Shown one piece after another: positions 1,029-64,000 of a stretch of DNA of 64,000 nt. The stretch spans positions 1,674,001 through 1,738,000 of the forward strand of contig NZ_CP047210.1 of the NCBI RefSeq assembly GCF_030408775.1. Direction: 5' to 3'. Each line of letters begins with the position of its first letter. The stretch's first letter is position 1. The position numbers and the translations under genes were made by a program. The notes under the pieces were generated by a model. It was not told the origin of the DNA. It saw nothing but the letters and a program-made list of their open reading frames with translations, and searched no databases. Origin of the DNA: Corynebacterium fournieri. GTDB taxonomy: Bacteria; Actinomycetota; Actinomycetes; Mycobacteriales; Mycobacteriaceae.

Positions 1029-1039
1029 GCCTATCGACG
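1029..1039 (+). repeat. Copy of the dispersed 11-mer GCYTATCGACG (intergenic)
   Basis: This is one of 15 exact matches to GCYTATCGACG that I count on both strands. The + copies start at 1029, 11553, 37078, 39711, 48224 and 63810. The - copies occupy 32742-32752, 33340-33350, 35312-35322, 39069-39079, 40934-40944, 46371-46381, 52524-52534, 56548-56558 and 58314-58324. This copy lies outside genes, between the DJ-1 remnant and the galE-like gene. Confidence 0.7.
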
Positions 1040-1151
1040 ATCACAGGTACCCCGCACTCGTCACGCCACAACCAGCCCGGCCAGCAGCTCAAAACGCCGT
1101 CCGAAGCTAGACAACGCATTCGGCTAGTGAAGGTTGGCCGCGCACTTCCTA

Positions 1152-2096
1152 CTAGCGCCCCGGTTCGTTACGGAAGTACTCCACGGTCCGAGCGACGCCT
1201 TCATCCAACGAGACCTGCGGTGTCCAGCCCAATACACGCTCGGCTTTCGCGTAGCTCAACGAAGAACGCGCGACGTCGCCGAGACGAGCGGGTTCATCAG
1301 CTGGCGAATCAGGAGCACCAACGGCCTTCGCAACGGCAGAATGCAGCTCGCGATCTGTCGTCTCCACACCCGTACCAATGTTGAAACGCTCACCGTCGCC
1401 TGCCTCAGCGGACGCCAGATAAAACGCGCGCGCCACATCCCCTACGTACACGTAGTCGCGAGTGTTCGTACCGCCGCCAAAGACGCAGGTCGACTTGCCG
1501 TCCAAAAGGTTGCGGGAAAAGATCGCAACCACGCCGGCCTCGCCAAACGGATTCTGCCGTGGGCCGTACACATTAGCCGGAGCGATGAAACTCGTCTCCA
1601 GCCCGTACAACTGCCGGTAGACGTTCAGATAAAGCTCGCCAGCGACCTTAGAAGCCGCGTACGGCGACTTCGGATCAACATGCAGCTCTTCGGTAGCAGG
1701 CAATTGGTCTGGCTCACCGTAAATTGAGCCGCCTGACGAAGTATGCACCACTCGGCGCACCCCAGTACGCCGCGCCGCCTCCGCCAGACGAATCGTAGCC
1801 AAAATGTTCATTTCTGCATCCAGAAACGGATCTTCCACGGAACGGCGCACATCGATTTGGGCAGCGAGGTGGAACACAACCTCCGGCTCTATCCGGCGGA
1901 AAATCGCCTCGAAATCGGCGTCGCGAATGTCCTGCTCTAGAAGTTCAACCGCGCCGGAATCGAGATGCTTTGCGATGTTCTCCGTACGTCCGGAGCTTAG
2001 GTTGTCAATCACGGTTACTTGATGACCATCTGCCACCAGAAGATCGACCAGATGTGATCCGATAAAACCTGCGCCACCAGTAACTACCGTTTTCAT
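1152..2096 (-). CDS. galE: NAD-dependent UDP-glucose 4-epimerase-type SDR (GalE-like)
   Basis: This 314-residue extended short-chain dehydrogenase/epimerase should interconvert UDP-glucose and UDP-galactose, or the N-acetyl forms, in the cytosol. It starts directly with the NAD-binding motif [10 protein letters not shown] (residues 6-15). It carries the catalytic Ser/Thr region [10 protein letters not shown] near residue 120 and the YAASK active-site pair near residue 146. The length is normal for GalE-type enzymes. The ATG at 2096 immediately precedes the Rossmann strand, so the start is secure. galU lies 8 bp upstream on the same strand, forming a two-gene unit that feeds the polysaccharide locus with UDP-sugars. 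Exact substrate (UDP-Glc or UDP-GlcNAc) cannot be read from the sequence; related uronate epimerases share these motifs. Confidence 0.85.
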
Positions 2097-2104
2097 CCTA
2101 TTGC

Positions 2105-3067
2105 CTAACGAGCTTCTTTAACGTCCGGGTTTTCTGCCTCAAAGTCGGTGATGATCTTCTTCACCGCCGTGTACAACGCCGGGCCGTACTTCGCATCCCG
2201 CAAACCAAAATCCACATTCGCCGGGATATACCCACCCGGGTTACCCAAATCATGGCGCTTGCCCTCATGCACCACCACATGCACCGGATGCCCCTCAGAA
2301 ATCATCAACTCAATCGCATCCGTGAGCTGCAACTCCCCACCCTTGCCCGGCTCAATCCGACGCAGAGCATCAAAAATGCCCCGATCCAACAAATACCGAC
2401 CAGTGGCCACCAACGTCGACGGCGCCTCGGCCACAGCAGGCTTTTCCACCATGCCACGCACCTTCAACACCTCAACACCATCAACCTGGGCCTCGGCATC
2501 CTCCACGTCAAACACGCCGTAGTTGAACACCTCATCGCGAGAGACGTTAAACGCACACAACACCGACCCACCAAGCTCGCGGCGCACCGCAACCATCTTG
2601 TCCATCACACCAACCGGCAACACCAAATCATCCGGCAACATGACAGCCACAACATCTTCATCGTCATCCAACGCCGACTCAGCACAGCCAACCGCATGCC
2701 CCAAACCAAGCGGCTCCTCCTGAGTCACCGCCACAGCTTCAATCAGCCCATTGGCACGCGCGACCTTCTCAGCCTGCGCATCCTTGCCGCGGGCAACCAT
2801 CAACTGCTGCAACTGCTCAAACTCGCCGAAATGACGCATGATCTCTTCTTTATTCGGCGCGACCACCACAGCAAGACGCTGCGCCCCAGCCGCAGCAGCC
2901 TCCTCCGCAATCAACTCAATGCCAGGAGTATCCACCACTGGAAGCAACTCCTTCGGCACCGTCTTCGTCGCCGGCAAAAAACGCGTACCCATCCCCGCCG
3001 CAGGCACAACAACCGTCTTCACCGAAGCACTCACGTCCTGCACGGGCTGGTCAGTAGAATTCCGCAT
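2105..3067 (-). CDS. galU: UTP--glucose-1-phosphate uridylyltransferase
   Basis: GalU makes UDP-glucose from UTP and glucose-1-phosphate, the precursor for Ugd and GalE in this locus. The protein has the nucleotidyltransferase signature [16 protein letters not shown], the PKELLPVVD segment, VMLPDDLV with the metal-binding Asp, and the VEKP motif before the sugar-binding part. I place the start at the ATG at 3067 (MRNSTDQ), giving 320 residues. The frame is open 11 codons further upstream, but that extension is hydrophobic and Cys-rich and unlike family N-termini. The gene shares a transcription unit with the downstream galE-like gene. Confidence 0.92.
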
Positions 3068-61539: not shown

Positions 61540-62672
61540 CGGCGGAACTTGCCGCGCATGCGGGAGAAGAACCCGTCGTGCGCCTCGTCGGACTCGACGT
61601 GGACGGCCGGGTTGTCCTGGTGGCCGTCGCGCAGGTCCTCCAATGCGGCGCGCTCGTCGTTCGTCAGCGCGGTGGGAACGGTGACCTGCACGTGCGCGAT
61701 CATGTCGCCGGCGCCCTCGGCGCGCAGTCGCGGCATGCCCTCGCCCTGCAGGTGAATGGTGTCTCCCGGCTGGGTGCCGCCGGGCACCTCGATGGCGGTG
61801 GGCTGCCCGGCCAGGTTGTCCACGGAAAGCTCGGTGCCCAACGCCGCGTCGTACATGGGCACGGTCAGACGCAGGTGCAGGTCGTTGTTCTCCCGCATGA
61901 ACACGGGGTGCGGCTGGACCTGGACCTCCACGTACAGGTCGCCGGCCGGGCCGCCGCCGTGGCCGACCTCGCCCTGGTTGGCCATGCGGATGCGCATGCC
62001 GGAGTTGATGCCGGCGGGGATGTTCACCGTCAGGTCGCGGGTGGCGCGCACGCGCCCGTCTCCGGCGCACTGGGTGCACGGGTCCTTGATCACCTCGCCG
62101 TAGCCGTGGCAGGTGGGGCACTCGCGGGTGGTCATGACGTTGCCCAGGAAGGACTGCTGCATCTCCTGGACCTGGCCCGCGCCGCCGCAGGTGCCGCAGG
62201 GCACCGGCTTCGCCTCGGTTTTGGACCCGGTGCCGTGGCACTTGTCGCACAGCACGGCGGTATCCACCGTGACCTCTTTCTTCGCGCCCGCGAAGGCCTC
62301 TTCCAGGGTGATGCTGGTGCGCAGCAGGGCATCGTTGCCCGGCTGCACGCGCGAGCGCGGCTGGCGCGCGCCTGCCCCGCCGCCGAAGAACGCCTCGAAG
62401 ATGTCGCCCAAGCCGCCACCGCCGAACCCGGCCGCGCCGCCCATGCCGCCGCCGGCCTCCATCGGATCCCCGCCGCGGTCCACGATCGCGCGTTTCTGCG
62501 GGTCCAGCAGCACCTCCTGGGCCGCCGCGATCTCCGCGAACTTCTCGGCCGCCTCTTCGGACGGGTTAACGTCCGGGTGGTACTTGCGCGCCAGTTTGCG
62601 GTACGCCTTCTTAATCTCCTGCTCGGTGGCTTCCTGGTCCACGCCGAGGATGCCGTAGTAATCGCGAGCCAT
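61536..62672 (-). CDS. dnaJ2: Chaperone DnaJ (actinobacterial DnaJ2)
   Basis: The 378-residue co-chaperone of DnaK has the J-domain ([20 protein letters not shown], then the HPD motif in [11 protein letters not shown]), a Gly-rich region, four CxxCxGxG zinc repeats ([32 protein letters not shown]) and a C-terminal substrate part. It lies downstream of hrcA as in actinobacteria. ATG 62672 starts MARDYYG. Confidence 0.95.
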
Positions 62673-62682
62673 ATCTTCCCTT

Positions 62683-63696
62683 CTATTCGCCCCGCAGGAT
62701 GCGGCTGATGTAGCGGGCCACGGTGGCAACCTTCTGCATGGTACCGGGGTAGTCCATGTGGGTCGGACCCACTACCCCGAGCCCGCCGAGTGCCTCGTCG
62801 CCCGAGCCATACGCTGTTGTAACAATCGAGGCGCGCGAAAATTCCTCGTCCTCGTTTTCGCGCCCGATGCGCACTGACACCCGCTCTAATTCCTGGGCGC
62901 CGGCGAGCAGTTTGAGCACCACCACCTGCTGCTCTAGCGCGTCAATCACACCTTGCAGGCCGCCGGAGGGCACCACTAGGTTCGATGAGCCGGCGATGAT
63001 CAGCCGGTCCGGCGACGCGTCCACGAGGGTGGTGATCAGCACCTCAGCCGCCCGGCTGGCGGGATCGGCCAAATGCGGCGGCGCCTTCGCGGTCAGGCGG
63101 GCCAGCTCGGCGGAGGCGTCGCGCATGGTCGCGCCGACAAGGGCGTCGTTAAGCAAATCGCGCAGCAGCCGCACCCCGTCCTCGCCGATGGGCGCGGCAA
63201 GGTCGACGTTGCGCTGGTCCACGCGCCCGGCGTCGGTGATGAGTACGAGCAACAGGCGCGTCGGGGTCAGCTCCACCACCTCGCAGTGCTTCACGCGCGA
63301 GACGTTTAAGGTGGGCAGCTGCACCACCGCCGCCTGGTTGGTCAGCTGCGCGAGCAGCTGCACGGAGCGGCGCAGCACGTCTTCGAGGTCCACGCCGTTT
63401 TCCAAAAAGTCCAAAATCGCGTGCCGTTCGGCGGCGGAGAGCGGCTTGACGTCGTGCAGCGCGTCCACGAACGCGCGGTAGCCGGCCTCCGTGGGGATGC
63501 GCCCGGACGACGCGTGGGTTTGGGAGATGTAGCCCTGCTGCTCCAGCACCGCCATGTCGTTGCGGATAGTCGCGGAGCTGACCCCCATCTTGTGCCGCTC
63601 CACCAGCGACTTCGACCCCACGGGTTCCTGGCTGGCAATGTAGTCGGCCACGATCGCGCGCAGCACCGCTTGGCGCCGCTGGTCCGCAGTACCCAT
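62683..63696 (-). CDS. hrcA: Heat-inducible repressor HrcA
   Basis: HrcA represses groE/dnaK-type genes through CIRCE sites. The 337-residue protein has the N-terminal winged helix ([56 protein letters not shown]) and the C-terminal dimer part ([20 protein letters not shown], [14 protein letters not shown]). No CIRCE site is visible near it. ATG 63696 is used. Confidence 0.95.
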
Positions 63697-63705
63697 CACG
63701 CCTCC

Positions 63706-64000
63706 TTACTCGGCTGCCAGGATATCGGTGATGATGCCGTCTGCAAGAAGCCGCCCTTCGTCCGTCAGCCGCAGCCGCTCGTCCGCCTGAAGCAGGCCCG
63801 CGCGCACATGCCTATCGACGACGTCCCGCGCCCCCGCACCAACCCACCCCGCCGGGATGCCTTCTTTCAGGCGCAGCCCCAGCATGACCGCCTCGGTGTG
63901 GGCTTCGGCCTCGGTGATGGTTTCGCGGTCCTGGATGGGCAGGATGCCGTCGCTAAGCAGCTGCGCATACTTCTCGGGGCGCTTGACGTTGAAGAAGCGC
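63706..64000 (-). CDS. hemW: HemW/HemN-like radical SAM protein, C-terminal part only
   Basis: The frame enters from the right edge and ends at 63706. The visible about 97 residues include RFFNVKRPEKYAQLL near the edge, TEAEAHTEAVMLGLRL and a C-terminus ERLRLTDEGRLLADGIITDI, which fits the end of HemW (heme chaperone-like) proteins. The gene lies 9 bp upstream of hrcA. The radical SAM core is outside the window. Confidence 0.85.
   Translation of the reverse strand, partial: RFFNVKRPEKYAQLLSDGILPIQDRETITEAEAHTEAVMLGLRLKEGIPAGWVGAGARDVVDRHVRAGLLQADERLRLTDEGRLLADGIITDILAAE

Follow-up and report, generated by a model that had tools for sequence, protein, structure and literature searches.

The window analysed here, a 64,000-nucleotide stretch of the Corynebacterium fournieri genome (positions 1674001-1738000 of the single 2,389,603-base contig), contains a short, frequently repeated word that we consider below as a putative DNA-uptake sequence, and a low-GC island of sugar-polymer genes. 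The word had been described originally as the 11-mer GCYTATCGACG, and all 15 copies reported for the window are present, six on the forward and nine on the reverse strand. One hundred dinucleotide shuffles of the window give a mean of 0.04 copies and a maximum of 1, with none of the 100 reaching 15; the chance figure of 0.06 given in the original prediction is close to this mean, and its claim that the repetition is far beyond chance is sound. The 11-mer is thus a real word, although too narrowly drawn, being a slice of a bipartite and degenerate motif, GCTT-NN-CGACG (GCTTNNCGACG), of which the window has 29 copies, 27 of them within 32.5-64 kb. T is the main third letter, and the Y of the 11-mer derives from a minor C form, with the rarer GCC form accounting for seven of the 15 window copies.

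These C-variant copies (GCCTATCGACG) are located at 1029-1039, 37078-37088, 39711-39721, 48224-48234 and 63810-63820 on the forward strand, and at 32742-32752 and 33340-33350 on the reverse strand; those at 1029-1039, 33340-33350 and 63810-63820 are outside predicted genes. Copies of GCTTATCGACG are positioned at 11553-11563 on the forward strand, where the word is in sense orientation in a Leu-x-Asp frame and forms an inverted pair with a reverse-strand GCTTAGCGACG at 11538-11548, and on the reverse strand at 35312-35322, 39069-39079, 40934-40944, 46371-46381, 52524-52534, 56548-56558 and 58314-58324. The other GCTTAGCGACG copy is at 63948-63958 (reverse). The remaining copies have other centres, and correspond to GCTTCGCGACG at 34472-34482 and 53989-53999 (both reverse) and 43482-43492 (forward), GCTTGGCGACG at 34687-34697 and 54762-54772 (both forward) and 53500-53510 (reverse), GCTTGACGACG at 36300-36310 (reverse) and 51967-51977 (forward), GCTTTACGACG at 38949-38959 and 49230-49240 (both reverse) and 44527-44537 and 47678-47688 (both forward), GCTTGCCGACG at 40317-40327 (forward), GCTTTGCGACG at 46879-46889 and 58794-58804 (both forward), GCTTGTCGACG at 59726-59736 (reverse) and 61350-61360 (forward), GCTTTTCGACG at 61422-61432 (reverse), and GCTTAACGACG at 63144-63154 (reverse).

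Form and layout of the word on the chromosome

The form of the word was examined in a 464 kb sample composed of the window and 20 stretches of 20 kb (~19% of the genome), to which the counts in this and the next section refer except where the whole genome or other genomes are named. The commonest one-letter variants of GCYTATCGACG differ mainly at the two centre bases, with little constraint on the dinucleotide that precedes CGACG. GCTTNNCGACG is present in 231 copies compared with ~12 expected under a third-order Markov model, and single changes in its fixed letters yield no more than 52 copies each. Among its centres TTAT is the commonest (56 copies), with TTGT (27), TTCT (25), TTTG (25), TTGA (24) and TTTA (15) also represented. 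GCYTATCGACG has 303 copies genome-wide (158 forward, 145 reverse), whereas its reversed control has no copies, and there are 1170 copies of GCTTNNCGACG (568 and 602 on the two strands) compared with 91 (45 and 46) of its reversed word, corresponding to about one site per 2 kb, on both strands.

GCTTNNCGACG occurs in each of the 21 sampled stretches, and no consistent direction was seen over these stretches on either chromosome arm. When strands are assigned by GC skew, the G-rich strand carries 93 copies and the C-rich strand 74 (167 of the 231 sites, the other 64 being in stretches with a skew under 0.01 and omitted from the tally), with no clear polarity; the lack of strand polarity that was originally held against a role as FtsK-orienting polar sequences (KOPS) is therefore confirmed. 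The balance extends to 201 genomes of the genus, with 77432 forward and 77454 reverse copies. Spacing in the sample is near random (coefficient of variation 1.08). There is a weak flanking preference, in that T is favoured before the word, C is favoured at the second base after it, and about 20 bases further on the sequence is rich in C, and this is common to intergenic, antisense and sense sites; no long shared flanks surround the sites in the sampled stretches. By inspection, several intergenic sites in the window and in stretches L033-L052 are closely followed by C-rich hairpin-like stretches and are preceded by a TAAGC-like half-repeat.

The polysaccharide and glycosyltransferase island at 11748-29658 (17.9 kb, GC 0.529) encodes glycosyltransferases, a rhamnosyltransferase-like protein and a UDP-sugar dehydrogenase. 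It contains no GCTTNNCGACG sites (Poisson P 0.00013 at the sample mean, for this one island). The island is 91% identical to its counterpart in the species G016, whereas the neighbouring backbone is 73-83% identical, and it therefore appears to be a recently exchanged surface-sugar island. The only tRNA gene of the window, a tRNA-Met at 26934-27008, is inside it, and a plasmid search with the island gave two trivial matches only.

Selection on the DNA word

Genes were modelled with a simple GC-position open reading frame (ORF) picker rather than taken from annotation, giving 419 predicted genes in the sample. These contain 189 copies of GCTTNNCGACG, compared with 22.3 ± 4.3 after synonymous codon shuffling (maximum 36 in 200 shuffles), and 59 copies of GCYTATCGACG, compared with 2.9 (maximum 9 in 200 shuffles); the excess over a codon-matched shuffle, on which the original prediction had staked its claim, is thus substantial. 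Enrichment of GCTTNNCGACG is seen in every frame on both strands, and is about 3- to 70-fold in the antisense and other frames; antisense copies number 56 compared with ~12 after codon shuffling, and antisense frame 1 has 16 compared with 0.27. Leu-x-Asp is encoded on the coding strand by 119 of the 189 genic copies, and within the context nnG-CTN-NNC-GAC-Gnn the codon CTT makes up 119 of the 170 Leu codons, compared with 1125 of 9872 CTN codons elsewhere, so that CTT is indeed a poor Leu codon as had been proposed. The codon shuffles and the antisense frames together also bear out the proposal that it is the DNA word and not the protein that is selected. Genes contain 0.455 sites per kb, compared with 0.852 per kb outside genes or at gene edges.

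The sites are also conserved between species, well beyond control words. All nine fixed letters are kept in orthologous stretches at 48 of 63 sites in G179, 21 of 37 in G016 and 17 of 42 in G189, compared with 126 of 372, 55 of 261 and 36 of 233, respectively, for 300 permuted words in the same DNA. In G009, a further relative outside the permuted-word comparison, four of eight sites are kept. The free centre is less conserved than the fixed letters in G179 (0.78 and 0.95), G016 (0.81 and 0.85) and G189 (0.75 and 0.83). The word is kept by selection as DNA.

Dialects across the genus

We counted the word in 201 Corynebacterium genomes, including six with a completeness below 90% or contamination above 5%, with the tallies copied by hand from per-genome count tables. 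Cut-offs (5x the reversed control; 300 copies; 2x or 150 for intermediates) were set after the counts had been seen, and 10 genomes fall between them. GCTTNNCGACG is strong (at least 5x the reversed control) in 136 genomes, with 280-1964 copies and a median of 1098. Eleven genomes have a second dialect, GCTTNNCGATG, with a CGATG core and 625-1337 copies, and in 10 of these GCTTNNCGACG is near background; the genome G142 has both words, with 1337 copies of the second dialect and 352 of the first. Ten genomes are intermediate, and 44 are without either main dialect. The second dialect is likewise in excess of codon-shuffled genes (43 compared with 3.4 in G143, and 47 compared with 4.1 in G006), and in the motif-less genomes G014, G162, G010 and G146 both main words are within the codon-shuffled range.

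A third, CGACGCCACCAG-like word, YCGACGCCACYRG, was found among 57 genomes searched, with 131 copies in G010 and 125 in G015, compared with 1 and 2 copies of the reversed word; it is clear only in these two genomes, both of which belong to the 44 without the main dialects, and G147 has 15 copies compared with 1 reversed. A shorter form, GTGGCGTCG, occurs 24 times in G010 genes compared with 2.9 after codon shuffling. The third-word sites in G010 are preceded by a T-rich stretch, and CGACG is common to the third and first words. What sets the dialects apart is letters of the fixed core, which is CGACG in the first, CGATG in the second and CGACGCCACCAG-like in the third. The preferred centre also differs between species, being AT in the window genome and other dinucleotides in G163 and G174, and because of this GCYTATCGACG alone misses G112, G163, G174 and others.

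The dialects were placed on a tree built for 28 loci from segments that tblastn aligned locally to three proteins encoded next to one another (TopA, the helicase and the Tad ATPase), with one outgroup row dropped for having too few residues; the third dialect is not on this tree. Nine of the 11 second-dialect species were placed, and all are in one clade with support of 1.000, within which the motif-less G014 is nested. The first dialect is found not only in G163 and G174, on the deepest branch, but also in later clades. An ancestral word that was lost more than once and switched once would be expected to give this pattern. Outside the genus, 5x the control is reached neither in the 140 genomes sampled from 30 further genera of the family nor in 138 additional genomes of the class, the highest ratio being near 2.7 as judged by eye. 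Two metagenome-assembled genomes were also examined, and the word is present in 18 copies in 21 kb of a Corynebacterium sp. (L155; none reversed) and absent from 7 kb of C. urealyticum (L183).

Scans of 100 kb of the motif-less genomes G162, G014 and G151 found no word of comparable strength apart from repeat-like words. In G146 (L065-L069) the word GGACGCCGC occurs 57 times in genes compared with 14-15 after codon shuffling (100 kb), an excess of about four-fold that is strand-balanced, and may be a further word of genome-wide spread in a species that lacks the main motif. The genome G048 has 532 copies of GCTTNNCGACG, yet only 15 in a 100 kb sample, 11 of them in genes compared with 1.5 expected; in the same genome (L098-L102) the palindromic CGAGnnnCTCG is enriched, with 98 copies compared with 37 codon-shuffled in 100 kb.

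Uptake genes and the probable function of the word

A match to ComEC is present in 200 of the 201 genomes, and a match to the Tad ATPase in 198, with 192 of these over the curated cut-off. In the window genome ComEA adjoins ComEC, and the Tad loci that we inspected have Flp and TadE-like pilins and a helicase, all recognised by eye rather than by family search, so that the genes for a DNA-uptake machine (pilus, ComEA, ComEC) are present. No Tad parts tied to dialect were seen by eye in 22 Tad loci, with pilin-like ORFs available for 21 of these, the G180 stretch having runs of N. A 2510-residue repeat-rich, surface-like protein (L047, 30-7562) adjoins comEC in convergent orientation in the window genome, in a region with 89% DNA identity to G179. 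Transformation of another actinobacterium, Micrococcus luteus, requires both ComEC and the Flp/Tad genes, and this pair of loci occurs frequently among Actinobacteria (PMC4322843).

We consider it probable that GCTT-NN-CGACG is a DNA-uptake sequence of Corynebacterium read by the Tad/Com machine, because its density, its strand balance, dialects that follow phylogeny, and the near-universal ComEC and Tad-pilus genes all fit; of the three candidates originally offered, an uptake-like word is the best supported. Among the features looked for in an uptake sequence, we observe copy numbers far above the composition and codon expectation, occurrence without strand polarity both in and between genes, and dialects following phylogeny. 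The word would then act as a tag by which the DNA of relatives is recognised and taken up. A plausible mechanism is that the word on double-stranded DNA outside the cell would be bound by a surface component, for which ComEA or a minor pilin of the Tad/Flp pilus is the likeliest candidate, that the retracting pilus would pull the DNA across the mycomembrane and cell wall, and that ComEA and ComEC would pass one strand inside for recombination by RecA. Preferred uptake of word-bearing fragments would spread new copies in the population, with decay repaired by conversion, and copies would therefore build up at all positions where the encoded protein can accommodate them. A new dialect would arise when receptor specificity changes, and with loss of specificity the word would erode.

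Several observations weigh against an uptake sequence. Close inverted pairs, which as terminator stems are common though not universal for uptake sequences, are not in excess, with six under 100 bp compared with ~10 expected, unlike reports for Neisseria. We identified no receptor for the word, and its apparent avoidance of island DNA was seen in one island. All 44 genomes without the main dialects have a ComEC match and 43 have a Tad ATPase match (G024 has none), and the Tad loci of the motif-less G014 and G151 look complete when read gene by gene; since motif-less species keep the same genes, the presence of the word must depend on something finer, such as a receptor residue or expression. 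No title on natural transformation of Corynebacterium is among the literature matches listed, and a published spaced-motif scan, in its available portion, names only CRISPR-related pairs for three Corynebacterium genomes (PMC5217627). The idea that a genome has or lacks the word according to whether it has competence genes is not supported, ComEC and the Tad ATPase being near universal.

An alternative is that the word is a chromosome-organising site, at which a cytoplasmic DNA-binding protein (nucleoid-associated, SMC/MksB-related or division-linked) would have ~1200 anchors per chromosome and drift in specificity would generate the dialects. Its occurrence in 21 of 21 sampled stretches, the conservation of positions between species, the limitation to one genus, and a two-part form suited to a dimer or two-domain binder are consistent with this. 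We nonetheless think it unlikely, as the sampled sites show no evident link with strand or with place on the chromosome, spacing is near random, 44 of 201 species have neither main word, and known chromosome-organising sites number in the tens rather than a thousand.

Other frequent genome-wide words, such as KOPS and Chi, are read by DNA motors or nucleases, and both are strand-polarised, whereas the corynebacterial word is not clearly so. KOPS were rejected, as the sampled stretches have no clear polarity from origin to terminus. A Chi-like site, stopping an end-resecting nuclease (AdnAB or similar) and loading RecA, would account for a word that is frequent, mostly genic and species-specific, and Chi sequences differ between genera. 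Yet the distribution of 93 and 74 copies on strands judged by GC skew is not the strong leading-strand excess of a Chi site, the ~8-fold excess over codon shuffling also speaks against it, and known Chi words have 5-8 bases, compared with the longer nine fixed letters and free centre here; we regard this explanation as quite improbable. A site by which a restriction, methylation or defence system marks its own DNA is more doubtful still, and a methylation or restriction site fits the word poorly. The word is sequence-specific, genus-limited, variable between species and absent from one island, but restriction targets are normally avoided, not enriched ~8-fold, and the word is long and asymmetric with a gap of only two bases. 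Explanations through codon or peptide usage, through a signal in the RNA or through the spread of a small repeat have a negligible chance of being correct, since in spite of the Leu-x-Asp reading of many genic copies the excess is lost on codon shuffling of first- and second-dialect genomes, the antisense and remaining frames show enrichment, sites are denser outside genes or at gene edges, and long shared flanks are absent.

The candidate uptake sequence can be compared with known systems. Corynebacterium differs from Neisseriaceae in being an actinobacterium with a mycomembrane. The corynebacterial word is also unrelated in sequence to the DNA uptake sequence (DUS) of Neisseriaceae, is two-part with a nearly free two-base centre, lacks the excess of close inverted pairs, and is associated with Tad/Flp rather than type IVa pilus genes and with no identified receptor such as ComP, all as seen from genome sequences. 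The likenesses, as set out in sections of PMC3630211, are the very many copies of a short asymmetric word on both strands, the permissiveness of intergenic DNA, and dialects that differ at fixed letters and are congruent with phylogeny. Two core versions in different members are similarly described there for the uptake signal sequence (USS) of Pasteurellaceae, and one orientation is favoured in the reading frame (PMC2346458), as for the word here. The corynebacterial core is unrelated to the USS and belongs to another phylum. The USS has a core and a weaker extended flank, as seen for the corynebacterial word, the flank being A+T-rich in the USS and C-rich on the 3' side in Corynebacterium. 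M. luteus is likewise an actinobacterium with ComEA/ComEC and tad genes (PMC4322843, in part); in Corynebacterium, competence is a prediction from the genes. The term 'uptake sequence' is absent from the two M. luteus papers searched (PMC4322843, PMC8467076).

In 2013, Neisseria and Pasteurellaceae were described as the only bacteria in which an uptake word is required (PMC3630211). Among the literature matches listed, there is no corynebacterial uptake word or genome-wide dialect-bearing word, and the papers listed for the exact words include no title on corynebacterial genomes. Uptake sequences are already known; a two-part, dialect-bearing one in Actinobacteria would be a new form of them. 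We also judge it fairly probable, from the comparison of genomes, that this is an uptake code of Corynebacterium's own, unrelated to those of Neisseriaceae and Pasteurellaceae, with a two-part word and a Tad-pilus machine acting across a mycomembrane, and that it was already present in the ancestor of the genus, its later history comprising at least three dialects, a single switch, a transitional species (G142) and many losses. If so, most corynebacteria would be naturally transformable and sexually partitioned by dialect, which would predict natural transformation in Corynebacterium and explain gene flow by dialect, and, as an independent case in Gram-positive bacteria, would indicate that uptake codes have arisen more than once and with different pili. 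Electroporation is in use for Corynebacterium, and adding the word to donor DNA would in that case be a direct handle for the genetics of commensal and industrial strains. Even with another function, ~1200 copies per genome, with dialects across a large genus, constitute a directly testable system.

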